From Bacteroidales bacterium (GTDB taxonomy: Bacteria; Bacteroidota; Bacteroidia; Bacteroidales; UBA932), in assembly GCA_017437755.1 (NCBI GenBank), contig JAFRXI010000048.1, positions 1-64,000 on the forward strand: a stretch of 64,000 nt of DNA, in the 5' to 3' direction. A program made the translations under genes and the position numbers. Each line of letters opens with the position of its first letter. The stretch's first letter is position 1. Below the pieces are notes generated by a model. That model worked only from the letters and a program-made list of their open reading frames with translations, had not been told where the DNA came from and ran no database searches. Below, one piece after another: positions 14,241-23,913 of this stretch.

Positions 14241-14308
14241 CATTATCCTTTACCATCTCCTGAGAAGGAATCAATCTATAGTCTAATCTTAGAAAATGTC
14301 CCAAAAGC
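14241..14308. other. Short spacer before the repeated element
   Basis: AT-rich spacer without a recognisable gene or terminator between the SUMF1-like gene and the repeat that starts near 14309. Confidence 0.4.
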
Positions 14309-14683
14309 GCACCGCCGCAGGAAAATACCACCTCCGGCGGCTGGGCGTATCGGCGAGCTCGCCGCAAAGGCTCGCCTCACGCCCTGCCATTGGACAGCCA
14401 TCTACCTGTCACTACGTAGAGCCATCGTTCTCGGGACACCTTCCTGAAAACCCCTGCATGACGCGCATTGACCATTCCCAGTGAGCCCCTCTTTACGCTC
14501 TACCCGTGCCGTCCCCTGCACGGAGACGGAAGAATGGGGCCGAATATGCGTCTCCGTGAAGGAATATCAGGAAAAACGGACGATTCACTGCACGGAGACG
14601 GAAAAACAGGCACGTCCATGGGTCTCCGTGCAGGAGCGCTGAGAAGAGATGGCCGATCAGGTCGGCCATGACGGGAAGGGCCT
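14309..14683 (+). repeat. Structured intergenic repeat, copy B1
   Basis: A segment of about 375 bases recurs at 19893-20262 with many substitutions but the same order of parts. The first half can fold into CCGCCG/CGGCGG and, at 14341-14386, a long stem with outer arms CTGGGCGT/ACGCCCTG and inner GGCGAG/CTCGCC. The second half holds two hairpins with the same arm: CACGGAGACG/CGTCTCCGTG (about 14519-14559) and CTGCACGGAGAC/GTCTCCGTGCAG (about 14588-14633). Short ORFs cross it in both copies but have no codon-wise pattern I trust. It could be a non-coding RNA, a mobile repeat, or both. Confidence 0.7.
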
Positions 14684-14709
14684 GGGGCATGGAGGGGCGT
14701 GACCATTCA

Positions 14710-14741
14710 TTTGTTAATTTACGCGATAATCGCTAACTTGC
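14710..14741 (+). promoter_or_regulatory. Variant promoter (TTTG-N20-TAACTTG)
   Basis: TTTG at 14710-14713, 20 bases, TAACTTG at 14734-14740. The -7 box is one T shorter than the usual TAnnTTTG while the spacer is one base longer, so the total length is kept. The surrounding bases CGCTAACTTGCAGCG recur at 20327-20341. Confidence 0.65.
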
Positions 14742-14768
14742 AGCGCTATATTCAAGTTTCACGTGCGT

Positions 14769-15614
14769 ATGAAAAAACTGATTCGCTACCTGATGATGCC
14801 GTTTTTTGTGGCCGGGACCGTCTCCTGCAATAAGGACACGGCGGCGCCTCAGGACGATGTCAAGGCCGTGACCGTGTCGGAATTCCTGGCGGCCCCCGAG
14901 TCGGAAACACAGGTTTATGAGCTGGTGGGGACTATCGGAAGTACAATCAACACCACTTTCGGCAATTTTGACCTGACAGATGCAACAGGCACCGTCTATG
15001 TATTCGGCTTGACGGCGGAAAATCTGGGGTACGGCACTAAGAATGACAAGAGTTTCTCTTCGCTGGGTCTTTCGGGAGGTGACAGGATCAGGATCCGCGG
15101 CTATCGCGGTTCATATGAAGACAAGATTGAAGTGCTTTATGCATGGTTCATCAAAAAGATAAGCAGCGACGGAAGCGGCGGTGATGAACCCCTGGGTAAT
15201 AAGGTCTCTTTCAAAACGAACTCCGATACCCAGATCTGGTCGGCCGAGACTGACGGCACCTACGGCGTCGGCTATTCGACTACCGCCAAAGGACTGAAGG
15301 TTGGTTTTTACAAGCACACCAGCGGCACAACCCCGGCCGCTCCCAATGCCAACCACGTCCGCATCTATAAGAACAATGTCCTCGTCGTAGGTCCCCTTAG
15401 CGGGAAAAATATCAAAAAGATAGTCATCGGCTGTGCGCCCGATGCTGGGACCACATCCTACTGCCATGACATGACGGGCCTGGAGGGAGGCGCCAATGCC
15501 ACCGCAGACAAGTCTGCCCTGACCGTGACCTGGACCGGGAAGGCCTCCAGGGTGGTCCTCCATACTCCATCCTATCAGGTCCGGATGGAGAAACTAACAG
15601 TGGAGTTCGAATAA
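14769..15614 (+). CDS. Lipoprotein with OB-fold-like domain
   Basis: This 281-residue lipoprotein starts MKKLIRYLMMPFFVAGTVSC. Residues about 35-125 look like the OB-fold domain common in Bacteroidota surface lipoproteins (YELVGTIGSTINTTFGNFDL, DLTDATGTVYVFGL, GDRIRIRGYRG). The C-terminal half resembles a beta-sandwich domain with a buried Cys pair. The start at 14769 is preferred over 14763 because the lipobox fits. It is the first of four tightly spaced genes (gaps of 13, 6 and 10 bases) under the variant promoter at 14710. Precise function unknown. Confidence 0.75.
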   Translation: MKKLIRYLMMPFFVAGTVSCNKDTAAPQDDVKAVTVSEFLAAPESETQVYELVGTIGSTINTTFGNFDLTDATGTVYVFGLTAENLGYGTKNDKSFSSLGLSGGDRIRIRGYRGSYEDKIEVLYAWFIKKISSDGSGGDEPLGNKVSFKTNSDTQIWSAETDGTYGVGYSTTAKGLKVGFYKHTSGTTPAAPNANHVRIYKNNVLVVGPLSGKNIKKIVIGCAPDAGTTSYCHDMTGLEGGANATADKSALTVTWTGKASRVVLHTPSYQVRMEKLTVEFE

Positions 15615-15627
15615 GTGATAATCGCGT

Positions 15628-16296
15628 ATGAAAAAGTTTGTATACATCCTTCTGTTTGCCCTCTTTGTGGCCTGGGCCGCATCGTGCAAGAAAGAAAACC
15701 CCTCTTCCGGCCAAAGCAAATACGGGGCAGACGGCGTGACGCCCATGCCGGAGGCCGTGGACATGGGGACCGTAGTCAATGGAAAGACTGTCAAGTGGGC
15801 GGCGTTCAACCTGGGAGCCTCGTCTCCTGAGGAATATGGCAGTTTTTATTGCTGGGGCGAGCTGGATACAAAGACCAACTACTCCAAGGATACTTATACT
15901 TATTATGATATTCCCGCGGAGCTCCCGTTGAGCGCGGACGTGGCCCACAAGAAACTGGGCGGCCATTGGCGGATGCCCACGCGGGCCGAATTCGAAGCGC
16001 TGCTCGCCAACTGCGACGTACAGGAATTAAACGGCCCAGTGAAAGGGATTCTATTTATCAGCAAGAAGAATTTCCGGACCATCTTCCTTCCTTTGGCCGG
16101 TTCCATGTCCGGCACGGAATGGCGATCTATTGGGGGAGTAACTGAGTATTATTCATCTACCGACTTTGAGGGACATGACCATCTTGTACGAGCCCTTCTG
16201 ATTTATCCTAAAAGTGCCGGGTTCAGCTATCTCACCATCATGGGAAATGCCGCACAGTATGGAGGCCATGTCATCCGTCCCGTATATGTTGAATAA
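15628..16296 (+). CDS. FISUMP-domain lipoprotein
   Basis: This 222-residue lipoprotein (lipobox WAASC) has the Fibrobacter-succinogenes-major-paralogous pattern: EAVDMGTVVNGKTVKWAAFN with NLGASSPEEYG and YCWGE, then WRMPTRAEFEALL, and a C-terminus GGHVIRPVYVE. The fold is C-type-lectin-like. Such proteins are surface or periplasmic and probably bind ligands; no catalytic residues are known. Paralogues occur at 19074 and 23155. It lies in the operon 14769-17491. Confidence 0.82.
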   Translation: MKKFVYILLFALFVAWAASCKKENPSSGQSKYGADGVTPMPEAVDMGTVVNGKTVKWAAFNLGASSPEEYGSFYCWGELDTKTNYSKDTYTYYDIPAELPLSADVAHKKLGGHWRMPTRAEFEALLANCDVQELNGPVKGILFISKKNFRTIFLPLAGSMSGTEWRSIGGVTEYYSSTDFEGHDHLVRALLIYPKSAGFSYLTIMGNAAQYGGHVIRPVYVE

Positions 16297-16302
16297 GCCA
16301 TC

Positions 16303-17019
16303 ATGAAAAGATTATCATTCACGCTCATCGCCGTTGCGGCCGCTTTGGCCTCGTGCCCACTCCTCGGCCAAGAAACTGATATCCAATCCACTACGGTCAA
16401 AGACCTGGTAGAGGTGCACGAGAAAGGTTGGTTCCGCGTACAGGGGGAATTCACCAAAACTTACGACAAGTCCAGGCTGCTTTTTTCCATCAAGGACCAG
16501 GATTACATCATTCCGGTCAGGCTCGCCAAGAAGGACCTCGGAGCCGAGGACCGCTTTGAATCCCTTAATCTCCAAAAGGGCGACACCCTTATCGTCAAAG
16601 GCAGGCTAACCTACCTTGAAGCCGCGCCGGGGGAATATTACCGGGGCCTTGCCGATGCGGTAATCATCGAAAAGAAAGAGGCCAGGCATGAGGAAGCGGC
16701 GGATAAGCTGCCGGTTATTATGGATCCGGAGACCAAGCCTTCCTTCAATGGCGGTGACGCAAACGAGTTCTCCAAGTGGGTCTATAACCATCTGGAATAT
16801 CCCCAGAAAGCCAGGGAAAACGGCATTCGGGGCCGTGTCATCATTTCTTTCACCGTTGAAAAGGATGGCACTGTGACCAACGTCAACGTACTCAAGGGGG
16901 CTGATCCCGACCTTGACAACGAGGCCGTCCGCGTGGTATCCAGTTCCCCCAAGTGGAAACCCGGTGCCGTAAACGGCGAACCCGTTGCCGTCAAATATAC
17001 CTTCCCCGTTGTATTTTAG
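16303..17019 (+). CDS. TonB C-terminal-domain protein
   Basis: This 238-residue protein has a signal-like N-terminus ending near LLGQE, an OB-like middle (GWFRVQGEFTK to YRGLADAVIIE), and a C-terminal TonB domain (NHLEYPQKARENGIRGRVIISFTVEKDG and GAVNGEPVAVKYTFPVVF). There is no membrane anchor typical of a working TonB after the signal sequence, so it may be a periplasmic TonB-like protein rather than an energiser. It sits six bases after the FISUMP gene. Confidence 0.82.
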   Translation: MKRLSFTLIAVAAALASCPLLGQETDIQSTTVKDLVEVHEKGWFRVQGEFTKTYDKSRLLFSIKDQDYIIPVRLAKKDLGAEDRFESLNLQKGDTLIVKGRLTYLEAAPGEYYRGLADAVIIEKKEARHEEAADKLPVIMDPETKPSFNGGDANEFSKWVYNHLEYPQKARENGIRGRVIISFTVEKDGTVTNVNVLKGADPDLDNEAVRVVSSSPKWKPGAVNGEPVAVKYTFPVVF

Positions 17020-17029
17020 AAGACTCCGG

Positions 17030-17491
17030 ATGAAGTACCTTCTGATGTTCCTGTCCCTTTTCGGCTGCACCTCGTGCGGGAGTTTTGACGGCATCAACCG
17101 GAAGCCGGATGGCGCTTTCCGGTACTATGAGTTCAACCTGTCAAATATGCGTATGATGCACGAGCGGTATTACCGGCTGGACTGCCTCGAGGACGGAACG
17201 GTCACTCTCTCCTGGGCCCGAAACGGATCGGACACCACTTCCATGACGGTCTCCAAGGAGGTCCCCGAACAGGTCAACGCCTTGATGCTCAAGCACAAAC
17301 TGTATAAACTGAAGAGGCAGTACCGCCCTCCTTTCAAGGTCCTCGACGGAAAAATGTGGTACGTTTTCATCGGATACGATTCCGGCAACATCAACTCGGG
17401 CGGAGCCAACGCCTGGCCGCCGGAGGCCCTCCGCTCCGGGATAGGCGCCATCAACGACTACCTGGACTCCCTCCTTCCCGCCCGGGAATAA
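17030..17491 (+). CDS. Small lipoprotein of unknown function
   Basis: This 153-residue lipoprotein starts MKYLLMFLSLFGCTSC. The ATG at 17030 is chosen because it opens the signal peptide and follows the previous stop by ten bases; the ATG at 16985 would overlap that gene. The mature part is a compact mixed protein (FRYYEFNLSNMRMMHERYYRL, KVLDGKMWYVFIGYDSGNI). I do not recognise a family. It is the last gene of the tightly spaced operon. Confidence 0.7.
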   Translation: MKYLLMFLSLFGCTSCGSFDGINRKPDGAFRYYEFNLSNMRMMHERYYRLDCLEDGTVTLSWARNGSDTTSMTVSKEVPEQVNALMLKHKLYKLKRQYRPPFKVLDGKMWYVFIGYDSGNINSGGANAWPPEALRSGIGAINDYLDSLLPARE

Positions 17492-17556
17492 TCATTTAGG
17501 GTGCCTCGCACCGCCGTTCAACCGGGTATGGATTTTGTATTTACCGTCCGTGCCTT

Positions 17557-18204
17557 ATGGTTGAAAAGCTGCTGTCCATATTATTTTTCCTCGCTGCCTG
17601 GGCCCTGCCCCTCAAGGCGCAGGATTATCCGGTATCCATGCCGGACGGCACCCCCTTGTCCGTGAAGTCCGATTCGATCTCCGTCAAGCCTGACTATTCG
17701 CCGCTGCCGGACTTTTTTCCGATGCCCGGAATCAGGATGCCGTCGTATCTGACACCGGTCCATTTCGAGACCAAGGAAGAAAGGGCGGCAAGGATCAATC
17801 TCCGGACAGAGGCCGGCGTGAAGCTCTCCGTAAAGCAGAACCTCTTCTGGTACCGGCCGCCGGTGTTCTCCCCGGCACAAAAGGCTATGTTTTTCGTTGC
17901 GGGACTCTTTCTGACGAGTCCGTCAAGACTCCCCGACGGCTGCATCCCCGCCATGAATGCCTCCAATCCGTTCTTCTTTTACAAGACGCCCGGGATGGCC
18001 CCGGTCGAGCATCCTTATGCCCCGGAGTTCTTCCCGCAATGCATCCGGACCGAATACGACTTTGCCTCAGGCACTTACAAGCAGGTGATGGTCCCCTGGA
18101 GCGAAATCAACATGAACCTCAACCGCAGCTTCGGCGGCCCGTATCTGAACGCCCCGGTCCCCCGGATGTACTTCAATTCGGCGGAAAGAGCTTTGTTACA
18201 GTAG
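17557..18204 (+). CDS. Secreted protein of unknown function
   Basis: This 215-residue protein has a signal peptide (MVEKLLSILFFLAAWALPLKAQ). The mature chain is rich in Pro, Phe and Tyr and lacks a recognisable motif. It may belong to short uncharacterised Bacteroidota secreted proteins. It lies 65 bases after the preceding lipoprotein gene on the same strand. Confidence 0.6.
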   Translation: MVEKLLSILFFLAAWALPLKAQDYPVSMPDGTPLSVKSDSISVKPDYSPLPDFFPMPGIRMPSYLTPVHFETKEERAARINLRTEAGVKLSVKQNLFWYRPPVFSPAQKAMFFVAGLFLTSPSRLPDGCIPAMNASNPFFFYKTPGMAPVEHPYAPEFFPQCIRTEYDFASGTYKQVMVPWSEINMNLNRSFGGPYLNAPVPRMYFNSAERALLQ

Positions 18205-18256
18205 ATTTTGGCCCTGAAGAGACGGTCCGGCCGTATATTTGTCTTTGATACTGCAG

Positions 18257-18676
18257 ATGAACACATTTCTCAAGATACTTACCCTATTCATCGCCGTCGG
18301 AGCCGTCGGCGGTGCCGTAATGATGTGGACGGATCCGACCGGCGTGAGCTGGGGCGGGGAACCGATGCTGGACCTGCTGCGTTCCAAGATGCCCTGGCCG
18401 GACATCCTGTTCAAAGACTTCATCCCTTCCGGATTCGTTCTCCTGGCCGTAAACGGCCTGACCCAGCTGCTGGCTGCCCTGATGCTTTTCAAGAAGCATC
18501 ACCGGGTTTACTGGGTTTGTCTCGCATGCGGAATCATCCTCATGCTCTGGATAGTGTTGGAATGGTATGTGTGGGGATTCGTGGCGCTGAGCAACATCTT
18601 CTTCGTGCTCGGCCTGGCGGAGGCGGTTGCAGCCTTGATTATGATTCGCCTTTCATCACGCGTTCAATCTTGTTGA
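18257..18676 (+). CDS. Small integral membrane protein
   Basis: This 139-residue protein has four hydrophobic segments (about 5-25, 57-77, 85-105 and 110-130), so it is an inner-membrane protein. The ATG at 18239 lies inside the -7-like box TATATTTG (18234-18241), so the ATG at 18257 is the start. The family is not recognised. Confidence 0.7.
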   Translation: MNTFLKILTLFIAVGAVGGAVMMWTDPTGVSWGGEPMLDLLRSKMPWPDILFKDFIPSGFVLLAVNGLTQLLAALMLFKKHHRVYWVCLACGIILMLWIVLEWYVWGFVALSNIFFVLGLAEAVAALIMIRLSSRVQSC

Positions 18677-18770
18677 GCGTGTGGAAGAAGCGCTTGGTGG
18701 CGATGGGGCCTTGGAGCGCAACCGCTAGATAATCAAGTGTTTCCGCATTTTTGCATGACCGTGACGCGGC
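18639..18770 (-). pseudogene. Possible coding remnant
   Basis: On the minus strand a short open frame (LDYLAVALQGPIATKRFF then HTLNKIERVMKGES) has protein-like composition, a stop at 18639, and no start of its own. A -7-like TATCTTTG lies upstream at 18774-18781. It looks like the C-terminal end of a deleted gene, overlapping the 3' end of the membrane-protein gene. The family is not recognised and the call is tentative. Confidence 0.3.
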
Positions 18771-18781
18771 ATGCAAAGATA

Positions 18782-19015
18782 CGGAAATTACTCTCTGACA
18801 ATCACCTACACTCCACGGGATAAGACACGGTGGCAGGATGCTAGGCGAGATCACCGGGGAACCCAGTCTTCTATAGGAAGAACTATCTAATACAAGTCAA
18901 TAACCCGTCCAATTTTTAGGGGGCAGTTCATAATGGCGGCGTTGTCCATGCATAGCCGCATCCTAGGGCCATAGAATGGCGATTGGCTTGGACAACGAAT
19001 TTCGGGTTGCGCGTA
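18782..19015. other. Gene-free stretch
   Basis: No convincing ORF, RNA gene or terminator. Only scattered short inverted repeats are seen before the promoter at 19016. Confidence 0.4.
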
Positions 19016-19047
19016 TTTGCATTTATCCTTGTCATTGGCTATCTTGC
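19016..19047 (+). promoter_or_regulatory. Variant promoter (TTTG-N20-TATCTTG)
   Basis: TTTG at 19016-19019, 20 bases, TATCTTG at 19040-19046, followed by CAG as in the other members of this set. It serves the FISUMP gene at 19074. Confidence 0.65.
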
Positions 19048-19073
19048 AGTGTTATTTGCAAAATAGCCCGTAT

Positions 19074-19673
19074 ATGAGAAAATCCATTTATCTTCTGATC
19101 ACTGCGATTCTGGTGATTGGCGCCGTATCTTGCAAGAAAGACAAAAACGGGAATGATTCCTCGTACGCAACAGGCGAAATCAATGCCGTAGACCTTGGCC
19201 TAAGCGTACTTTGGGCGGACAGGAATCTGGGAGCCGGCAATCCTATGGACATCGGCGACTGTTTTGCCTGGGGCGAGACCACCCCGCGGCCTTATAACTC
19301 TTTTGCCGATCCTTATGTTTTTGACGGAAGCATCACCCCCACGAAACTGAGCGGGAATTGCGATGCCGCCGAAACCCTGCTCAAAGATGGCTGGCGCATG
19401 CCCACAAAAAAAGAATGCGAGGAACTGAAAACGCTTGAGAAAGAGTTCATAACGAAAAACGGAAAGAACATAGGCCAAAAGGTATCCGGAAACGGCAACA
19501 GCATTTCCATCCCCTACCCCGATCCCAATTCAAACTCTAATTATATTAATATCTGGACTTCGGAAAGGTTGAACGATCCTTTATGGGCCTATATCTGTTA
19601 TAGCGTCGATTATGTGGGACAGTCCCGCCGGGAATACTCCAATCCAATCCGTCCCGTTAAAGACAAGCCATGA
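19074..19673 (+). CDS. FISUMP-domain lipoprotein
   Basis: This 199-residue lipoprotein starts MRKSIYLLITAILVIGAVSC. It has NAVDLGLSVLWADRNLGAGN, CFAWGETTPRPY, WRMPTKKECEEL and the C-terminal RREYSNPIRPV, all typical of the FISUMP lectin-like domain. The in-frame ATG at 19017 lies inside the promoter, so 19074 is the start. It appears monocistronic. A role in binding at the cell surface is inferred from the family only. Confidence 0.82.
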   Translation: MRKSIYLLITAILVIGAVSCKKDKNGNDSSYATGEINAVDLGLSVLWADRNLGAGNPMDIGDCFAWGETTPRPYNSFADPYVFDGSITPTKLSGNCDAAETLLKDGWRMPTKKECEELKTLEKEFITKNGKNIGQKVSGNGNSISIPYPDPNSNSNYINIWTSERLNDPLWAYICYSVDYVGQSRREYSNPIRPVKDKP

Positions 19674-19892
19674 TTCAACCGTCCTGAATCTCCGCTTCCC
19701 CCACCCGAAAAACGGCAGGAACATCAATCCGCATTCTACGCTGCTGTAGTGCCTCTTGCCGTTCTCACCCTAGACAATTTGCCATAGGCTGGAACGTCTG
19801 GCATGCACGTACCGCCGTCAAGGGCCATCTTCCGTTCCAACCGAAATTCGGGTTGGAGAGAAAGCACGGTTGACGGATGATGCTGGCAGGCA
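19674..19892. other. Gene-free stretch with nested inverted repeats
   Basis: CCGTCAA (19815-19821) pairs with TTGACGG (19870-19876) around a second hairpin TCCAACC (19836-19842) / GGTTGGA (19851-19857). This nested structure ends 16 bases before repeat copy B2. No gene is seen. Confidence 0.5.
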
Positions 19893-20262
19893 CCACCGCC
19901 GGACTATACCACCTCCGGCGGCAGGACGCATCGGCGAACTCGCCGCAAAGGCTCGCCTCGCGTCCTGCCATCGGACAGCCATCTACCTGCCACGACGCAG
20001 GGCCATTGTTTTCGGGACACCTTGCGGAAAATCACGGCATTACGCGCATTGGCCCTTCCCAGTGAGACACATTGCGCGCCACACGAGACGTACTTGCACG
20101 GAGACGGAAGAAACGGGCCATATATGCGTCTCCGTGCAGGAATTTCAAGGGAAATGGACGTTTTTCTGCACGGAGACGGAAAAACAGGCGTATTCATGGG
20201 CCTCCGTGCAGGAGCGCGGCAAAGAGATAGCCGATCAGGTCGGCCAGGACGGGAAAGGTCGG
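19893..20262 (+). repeat. Structured intergenic repeat, copy B2
   Basis: Second copy of the element at 14309-14683. The long stem at 19922-19967 has outer arms CAGGACGC/GCGTCCTG, where copy B1 has CTGGGCGT/ACGCCCTG. Two of the pairs differ by changes on both sides that keep pairing. The twin hairpins are TGCACGGAGACG/CGTCTCCGTGCA (about 20095-20140) and CTGCACGGAG/CTCCGTGCAG (about 20168-20213). As with B1, a lipoprotein gene with the variant promoter follows. Confidence 0.7.
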
Positions 20263-20292
20263 CCAGGACGGGAAAGGTCGACCAGGACGGCA
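20239..20292 (+). repeat. Short tandem repeat (about 19 bp, nearly three units)
   Basis: GTCGGCCAGGACGGGAAAG occurs twice in a row (20239-20257, 20258-20276), followed by a diverged partial third unit. It lies at the 3' end of repeat copy B2; copy B1 has only one related unit. Confidence 0.8.
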
Positions 20293-20305
20293 ATTTGCTG
20301 GCGGT

Positions 20306-20337: not shown

Positions 20338-20362
20338 AGCGTAAACGAATAGAAGAATGCAT

Positions 20363-20626
20363 ATGAAACGAATCATTTCAAAACTGGCGGTGCTGCTGCT
20401 TGCCGGAGCCGCATTGATTGCAACTGGATGTTCAAAAGCCAAGAACGATGACGGAAAAGATGGTCAGGATGAGAGCGAATACATAACCAGGGCCGAATTC
20501 AACGAGTACAAAAAGGAAACCGCAGCAACCGTCAAGACCATGGTGGACGCAATAAATGAACTCTCGGCCCTTACCGCAGGCTTCCCGGAAGGCAAGACCA
20601 TCAAACAGTATATCGACAGCAAGTAG
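20363..20626 (+). CDS. Short lipoprotein of unknown function
   Basis: This 87-residue lipoprotein starts MKRIISKLAVLLLAGAALIATGC. The mature part is acidic, then helical (ITRAEFNEYKKETAATVK and on), ending FPEGKTIKQYIDSK. It may be complete or the shortened N-terminal part of a longer lipoprotein. The ATG at 20363 is preferred over 20357 because it opens the signal peptide. No family is recognised. Confidence 0.6.
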   Translation: MKRIISKLAVLLLAGAALIATGCSKAKNDDGKDGQDESEYITRAEFNEYKKETAATVKTMVDAINELSALTAGFPEGKTIKQYIDSK

Positions 20627-23048: not shown

Positions 23049-23154
23049 CCAAGGAACTTAGCATGGCGGCAGTACGGGACACAAAAAAACGGCCTGAATG
23101 ACTCGAAATTCCCCGGGAATCGCTATCTTGCAGGGTTAATCTTGATATTTGCAA

Positions 23155-23913
23155 ATGAAAAAGCTGACCTGCTTCACAATGGCGACGCTGATGATGCTCG
23201 CCGCGGCCTGCAAGAAGGATAAAGACGGACCGGACGGGAATCTTCCGGTGCCCAAGGCTGTGGACATAGGCCTGGTCCTTACCAACGAGAACGGCGAGTA
23301 CAATCTCAAATGGGCCAGTTTCAACCTCGGAGCCTCCAACGAGCTGGAATACGGTGATTATTATGCCTGGGGCGAGATTTCCGCCAAGGAAGATTACACC
23401 TGGGACACATATAAATTCGCAAATGGCGAGAACAAGCTCACAAAGTATTGCCCGAATACTGAAACCGCGGCGTATTATTGGGACGTAAAGGGCAGGGAGC
23501 CAGACGGTCTGACCGTGCTTCAGGGCGATGATGACGTAGCCCGCAAGAGACTGGGCAGGAAATGGCGTATGCCAACCAAGGAGGAATTCAGCGCCCTGCT
23601 GGCCCTGAAGGACAAGCCTGGATATAAATTCAACAAATGGGAGGAGATGAAAGATGCCCAGGGGAATTCAGTCTACGGCCTTAAAATAACCCGGGAATCC
23701 ACTGGAAGCTACCTGTTTTTCCCGGCAGCAGGATACGGCGTGCAAACGACTCTGGGCAAAAACGCCGGGTCCATAGGCCGGTACTGGAGTTCCTCCGTGA
23801 GCACAGGCCTTCCGGTGGGCGCATCGGCTTTGATCGTTATGGCCAATCAGTGCGATCTGATGGCGGCCGATCGGTACTACGGCTACTCGGTCCGACCGGT
23901 TTGCGAAGAATGA
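23155..23913 (+). CDS. FISUMP-domain lipoprotein, first gene of the pectin operon
   Basis: This 252-residue lipoprotein (lipobox LAAAC) contains PKAVDIGLVLTNENGEYNLK, WASFNLGASNELEYGDYYAW, KWRMPTKEEFSALL and the typical end GRYWSSS ... YYGYSVRPV. This is the most complete FISUMP domain in the window. The pectinesterase gene follows after 21 bases, so it may help bind pectin or its fragments at the cell surface; that role is inferred from position only. Upstream is the box CGCTATCTTGCAG at 23121-23133. Confidence 0.83.
   Translation: MKKLTCFTMATLMMLAAACKKDKDGPDGNLPVPKAVDIGLVLTNENGEYNLKWASFNLGASNELEYGDYYAWGEISAKEDYTWDTYKFANGENKLTKYCPNTETAAYYWDVKGREPDGLTVLQGDDDVARKRLGRKWRMPTKEEFSALLALKDKPGYKFNKWEEMKDAQGNSVYGLKITRESTGSYLFFPAAGYGVQTTLGKNAGSIGRYWSSSVSTGLPVGASALIVMANQCDLMAADRYYGYSVRPVCEE

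Follow-up and report, generated by a model that had tools for sequence, protein, structure and literature searches.

Two copies of an element of about 370 bp stand in a 64,000-nucleotide stretch of a Bacteroidales bacterium genome (assembly GCA_017437755.1, contig JAFRXI010000048.1, positions 1 to 64,000; here the window), at 14308-14683 and 19889-20262, and they raise the question of whether the element is an undescribed structured RNA or a structured mobile repeat, the two options left by the initial annotation of the stretch. The copies are 83% alike in alignment, and copy 1 used as a BLAST query (bases 1-372) retrieves copy 2 at 19890-20258 with 83% identity. The mobile repeat is the better fit of the two options given the dispersal of the copies, their place inside insertion sequences, an occupied and empty site pair and a linkage to genes of repetitive extragenic palindromic (REP)-associated tyrosine transposases (RAYTs). 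The 81-nt part with which each copy begins, termed module A, has about an even chance of being a REP-like mobile repeat that is recognized by its structure and hitchhikes on insertion sequences.

Module A as a Dispersed Family

The similarity noted between the two copies is real and begins at the 5' edge of module A, at 14308 in copy 1 and 19889 in copy 2. The 370 bp is not a single element as first described but a mosaic in which module A is joined to a spacer, a pair of hairpins (B) and a palindrome (C), and only the first 81 nt belong to a structured and conserved family. Module A lies on the plus strand at 14308-14388 in copy 1 (96.7 bits with model R1 and 62.0 bits with the retrained model R2) and at 19889-19969 in copy 2 (93.5 and 60.5 bits).

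The genome of the window (2.88 Mb in 76 contigs, 84.9% complete) gives 14 BLAST matches to copy 1, comprising full copies, matches to the first 70-84 bases only and short later parts. Three are full copies, two in the window and one on contig C45, and the final model finds 11 matches to module A, ten at an E-value of 1e-9 or better and one at 0.0023; with this number of copies the similarity within the window is not due to chance. The sequence following module A varies. In two copies on C45 about 30 nt and one B hairpin replace the spacer and two hairpins (by eye), and at C38:69985, C73:51970 and C14:157335 module A is followed by different repeats. At the BLAST sensitivity used the B hairpins occur in this genome only beside module A, and in one search the element matched 20 of 37 genomes of the genus, mostly through palindrome C alone.

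A model built from 13 copies matches 73 of 300 genomes of the genus at E-values up to 0.001, and R2 matches at least 125 of the 300 at E-values up to 1e-4 with at least 13 matches in the richest genome, these counts being lower bounds as 13 candidates per genome were scored. Considered as a REP candidate, module A thus occurs in several dispersed copies per genome. An order-wide survey of 247 genomes from 173 genera under strict filters returned an R2 match in the window's own genome alone, and among the genera sampled in the order module A appears from these sequences to be bound to the window's genus. The genus is taken to be Cryptobacteroides; an exact pattern scan of named genomes retrieved 54 contigs titled as Bacteroidales, Bacteroidia or Bacteroides metagenome-assembled genomes, three of them from two species of Candidatus Cryptobacteroides. 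Rfam gives no match in the window at gathering score except tRNAs and none to module A in the sequences searched even at relaxed E-values, in keeping with the "undescribed" of the initial annotation, and a literature search at the level of titles and abstract openings found no published description. The three-armed folding repeats of module A form a large family, dispersed in one genus and without an earlier name. On six contigs (G071:C28, G071:C73, G036:C25, G036:C60, G000:C73 and G000:C76) module A lies within 500 bases of an end, and the module is perhaps a cause of assembly breaks in the genus.

Fold and Covariation of Module A

The long stem of copy 1 is formed by CTGGGCGT (14341-14348) pairing with ACGCCCTG (14379-14386) and that of copy 2 by CAGGACGC (19922-19929) pairing with GCGTCCTG (19960-19967). 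Between the copies a G-C pair becomes A-T, a T-A pair becomes C-G and an outer T/T mismatch becomes an A-T pair, and the alignment therefore bears out the double-sided changes originally noticed. Both copies taken with some flank fold better than their shuffled versions (100 each), with z-scores of -4.76 for 14309-14700 and -4.66 for 19893-20285. The longer consensus and fold, read from 125 distinct copies, show a three-way junction with a closing stem P1 (usually GGCA/TGCC, in copy 1 CGCA/TGCC), a 9-bp hairpin P2, a single base and a long stem P3 containing a small asymmetric internal loop. The P2 loop begins AATATACG with the major base at a frequency of 0.85-0.97 over its first seven positions.

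The argument that selection acts on structure is strongly supported in the enlarged family. In 33 long-type copies, hand-picked from among the 125 because their lengths are alike, pairing holds in 95.4% of 1055 cells (85.5% when shuffled) and 20 of 32 pairs are changed on both sides, compared with a shuffled mean of 9.2, with none of 500 shuffles reaching 20 and at most 7 such pairs in structures slid along the alignment. A first count over 13 rows gave 4 of 22 pairs. Many pair types are also seen in the larger alignments, with 89 and 48 distinct rows, but these have been fitted to the model. The folded three-way-junction shape of module A may accordingly be what selection keeps.

Double-sided changes can also arise by gene conversion between the arms of a palindrome, and module A could on that account be an inert palindromic repeat with no machinery of its own, spread by recombination between regions rich in repeats and by carriage on insertion sequences while arm-to-arm conversion keeps the arms complementary. 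The variation between genomes of the repeats next to module A, which itself stays, is in line with such passive spread. Arm conversion nevertheless leaves unexplained the conservation of the loop and junction bases, which are kept about as well as the stems (on average 0.83 for unpaired P2-loop positions and 0.87 for stem positions). The sharp ends of the module also speak against an inert repeat, which we regard as improbable: the mean run of outward pairing past P1 is 0.57 bp compared with 0.36 bp when shuffled (largest of 200 shuffles 0.50), indicating that P1 gains a base pair at times, and the longest run is 2 bp. An insertion of module A into the middle of larger palindromes was rejected, as no run exceeds 2 bp and the ten flanking positions (2.43 compared with 2.53 shuffled) show no excess.

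Module A behind Transposase Genes and inside Insertion Sequences

Transposases were surveyed with six query proteins on both strands of two sets of loci, the first with 117 loci and 131 copies and the second, fetched later from the same genus and partly from the same genomes, with 39 loci and one own-genome locus. In 14 of the 117 first-set loci a sense transposase match ends within 60 nt 5' of module A, giving 15 copies (L085, L090, L122, L125, L126, L127, L130, L181 twice, L187, L193, L198, L205, L208 and L220), with several of the matches being fragments. A single antisense match lies within 60 nt (L339, on the 3' side) and one match overlaps module A (L304). At L123, L131 and L223 the sense match ends 238-257 nt before module A, and at L123 and L131 a small open reading frame (ORF) without a Pfam match ends 7-8 nt before it. 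Pfam assigns rve to L125 (IS3 type), DDE_Tnp_ISL3 to L208 and Transposase_mut to L123 and L126, and the L122 protein, with no Pfam transposase family, is distantly related to the L126 type. Judged by protein similarity, at least four transposase types precede module A, namely L122/L126-like, L123-like Transposase_mut, DDE_Tnp_ISL3 and IS3 rve. In the second set, the only hint of a transposase at L310 is a C-terminal motif recognized by eye.

For both L181 copies and for L126 the right end beyond module A has a clear left-end counterpart (none of 200 shuffles); for L123 (4 of 200), L208 (5 of 200) and L127 (10 of 200) such a match is suggestive. Module A is thus inside an insertion sequence in at least three copies. 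An empty counterpart is provided by ISL3: at L356, a 138-residue end fragment that is 80% identical, the stop codon runs straight into the right end, whereas at L344 and L220 module A lies between the two. L344 is the only one of 16 ISL3 loci from 200 genomes that carries module A. Viewed as a miniature inverted-repeat transposable element, module A alone has only the 4-bp P1 with at most 2 bp added and occurs by several transposase types. At L181 (2120-2580) two insertion sequences bearing module A stand tail to tail with 287 bp between the modules. Separately, at L111 and L124 (genomes G071 and G184) an IS110-type transposase, whose protein is 97% identical between two species, lies about 400 nt from module A and antisense to it; an IS110 bridge RNA was rejected as an identity for the module, these two being the only loci of those searched with this arrangement.

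The position behind transposase genes brings in the main rival, in which transposase messages end in module A as a cis-acting RNA (a terminator, stabilizer or regulator) that different insertion sequences have acquired and swapped, the scattered copies being remnants or detached. The 15 sense copies set against one antisense match within 60 nt are consistent with a role in the 3' untranslated region (UTR), as are the conserved P2 loop, one P3 pair that is mostly G-U in the 33-copy alignment, and the own-genome copy at C38:49032, which is followed by a stretch resembling the right end of an insertion sequence (by eye). With that P3 pair set aside, G-U cells outnumber A-C cells in the 48-row alignment of the second set (34 compared with 20), becoming equal (20 and 20) when a second P3 pair is also removed, but not in the 33-row (13 and 18) or 89-row (30 and 49) alignments. 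Fold energy is on average equal on both strands and lower on the plus strand in 20 of the 33 copies. Mixed wobble counts and equal strand energies therefore give no consistent sign of a plus-strand RNA. Loops that are on average no better conserved than stems, the many copies away from any transposase and some copies antisense to their neighbors also argue against the 3'-end RNA, which we consider possible but doubtful.

Link to RAYT Genes

HUH/Y1 transposases of the RAYT type have been proposed to recognize the folded single strand of REP sequences, and RAYT genes are enriched near module A. A RAYT lies within 1.2 kb in 8 of the 117 first-set loci (1.0 expected, p 1.1e-5) and in 4 of the 39 second-set loci (0.32 expected, p 3.5e-4), the expectation being derived from a count of 398 RAYTs over 67 genomes totaling about 150 Mb, with rounded genome sizes and with different profiles and cut-offs for the local and genome-wide searches. 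Two His and one Tyr are invariant in all 15 aligned RAYTs; when compared by profile with solved structures, the RAYTs hit chains named transposase only weakly (best E-value 0.03). A repeat shared by both flanks is found in 20 of 49 RAYT entries having both flanks, some entries being the same place. At four G016 loci the repeats downstream of module A correspond to the flank of a G016 RAYT (E-value 1e-36 or better), and at L102 in G318 they correspond to the flank of a G318 RAYT (1e-21 or better). The L103 repeats match a RAYT flank weakly, and those at L108 in G162 gave no match to a RAYT flank.

A single cognate RAYT lineage for module A was rejected, as the linked RAYTs are spread over both RAYT groups. 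The enrichment and flank matches, taken with this spread and with a module A at one of 39 RAYT loci, place the module in REP territory yet not as the REP of one RAYT. No RAYT could be assigned to the window's own hairpin B, which has no match to a RAYT flank among the loci compared (assembly 84.9% complete). A REP-RAYT-like unit is seen in the same genome at L065 (4845-5962), where a RAYT has the same hairpin pair on both sides, of the CGTGCTCCCCGTCC type.

Interpretation and Comparison with Known Systems

In the REP-like reading, module A would be copied at the DNA level through an enzyme recognizing the folded single strand, as proposed for RAYTs and REP sequences, and would spread further as a passenger when its carrier insertion sequence jumps. 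The window elements are composites in which module A is joined to REP-type hairpins (B) and a common REP-like palindrome (C), similar to bacterial interspersed mosaic elements (BIMEs). More tentatively, module A may be a genus-specific passenger coded by structure that colonizes unrelated insertion sequences at one fixed place, on the coding strand behind the transposase, and is recognized as a folded nucleic acid, an add-on or parasite of IS3, ISL3, mutator-type and HUH elements. Most weight is given to HUH-type recognition of the folded strand, less to the 3'-UTR RNA and some to passive spread.

Several observations weigh against a REP-like mobile repeat. The mobility of module A is itself read from its distribution, and no target duplication of the module was identified. 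The strand-blind search of the 39 second-set loci gave no clear sense transposase case, none of the own-genome copies, including those of the window, is beside a match to the six transposases, and no left end was found for L122, L125 and L131. An RNA role, or common descent of the ends of insertion sequences, would account more naturally for the coding-strand bias, and the wobble evidence is mixed. Among 39 RAYT loci, some of them the same place, the first model found a significant module A only at L157 (the same place as L119); the linked RAYTs belong to both groups, with no single lineage as partner, and only L100 has module A on both sides of the RAYT. The REP marks, a GTAG/GTGG foot and a short single hairpin, are absent from module A: by eye no GT[AG]G foot is conserved in the 33 aligned copies, which have GGCA..TGCC ends and a branched fold of 99 columns.

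PMC6006769 gives the GT[AG]G tetranucleotide at the hairpin foot as the mark of REP sequences and describes a Bacteroidetes subclass 2.6 of REP/RAYT (TnpA-REP) with "atypical secondary structures" that likewise are without GT[AG]G. Module A resembles the REP/RAYT systems described there in being a folding repeat present both beside RAYT genes and at other places in the genome, in the two His and Tyr kept by the RAYTs and in the match of adjacent hairpins to RAYT flanks in G016 and G318. It differs in its branched fold of mostly 81-93 nt without the GTAG/GTGG foot, in being common to many species and different RAYTs and in sitting inside DDE insertion sequences. BIMEs are mosaic REP arrays (PMC2817692), and the window elements are likewise ordered mosaics of several palindromic repeats. 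Unlike BIMEs they include module A, without the usual REP marks. Pneumococcal BOX elements have a modular boxA-boxB(n)-boxC layout, and we know of none embedded in insertion sequences. The likeness to BOX (PMC3049150), which belongs to another phylum, was judged by layout: both are structured intergenic repeats built of modules, the middle ones repeated. An integron attC site was rejected by eye: module A has consensus ends GGCACC and GTTGCC. These do not fit the attC boxes R'' (RYYYAAC) and R' (GTTRRRY).

As a rule a folding repeat belongs to a single transposase. The module A fold, with its strong double-sided changes, is found in the same orientation behind several unrelated transposase types and also by RAYTs. 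If confirmed, it would be a rare case of a structured module shared by dissimilar mobile elements, and would offer a substrate on which the RAYTs of Bacteroidota, so far little studied, could be tested.

Layout and Neighbors of the Window Copies

Downstream of module A on the plus strand, copy 1 has the spacer (14389-14514) and the hairpins B1 (14516-14563; direct repeat D1, inverted repeat I2) and B2, 72 bp past B1 (14588-14635; D1, I3), followed by palindrome C at 14647-14676 with no strand assigned, a REP-like sequence ATGGCCGATCAGGTCGGCCATGACGGG common in the genus. Copy 2 repeats this order with the spacer, defined by alignment of the copies, at 19970-20094, B1 at 20095-20141 (D1, I3), B2 again 72 bp past B1 at 20167-20213 (D1) and, also with no strand assigned, palindrome C at 20227-20255, which runs into a 19-bp tandem repeat. 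The copy 1 spacer is matched in copy 2 alone among the loci compared at the sensitivity used. The tandem repeat, three units of AGGTCGGCCAGGACGGGAA at 20237-20293, has apparently grown from palindrome C. A protein-coding origin, the alternative named in the initial annotation, was rejected: the long ORFs over copy 2 (160, 152 and 114 amino acids) lack a counterpart over copy 1, where the equivalents have only 62-68 amino acids.

Each copy precedes, outside the repeat, a plus-strand ORF with a lipoprotein-like N terminus (14763-15614 after copy 1 and 20357-20626 after copy 2; lipoboxes read by eye). The placement just before lipoprotein genes holds for the two window copies and fails as a general rule: other own-genome copies are antisense to their neighbors, between convergent ORFs or directly behind a pheS-like gene, as at L052, where module A starts at the stop codon of that gene (named by eye). 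A role as cis-regulator of lipoprotein genes was rejected, the context not being common to other copies, and a function at lipoprotein genes is not supported. A stand-alone undescribed structured RNA encoded before such genes would suit the strong fold and both window contexts, but copies elsewhere in this genome and in the genus do not share the lipoprotein context, and this reading is very improbable. Counted with crude ORF calls, 174 of the 254 neighboring ORFs within 600 nt have their 3' end towards module A (86 of 130 for those on its 5' side and 88 of 124 for those on its 3' side). WGE..WRMPT motifs are present in three lipoprotein-like ORFs of the window (15628-16296, 19017-19673 and 23149-23913), which by eye form a small paralogous cluster around the repeats and are reminiscent of a Fibrobacter-type paralogous domain.

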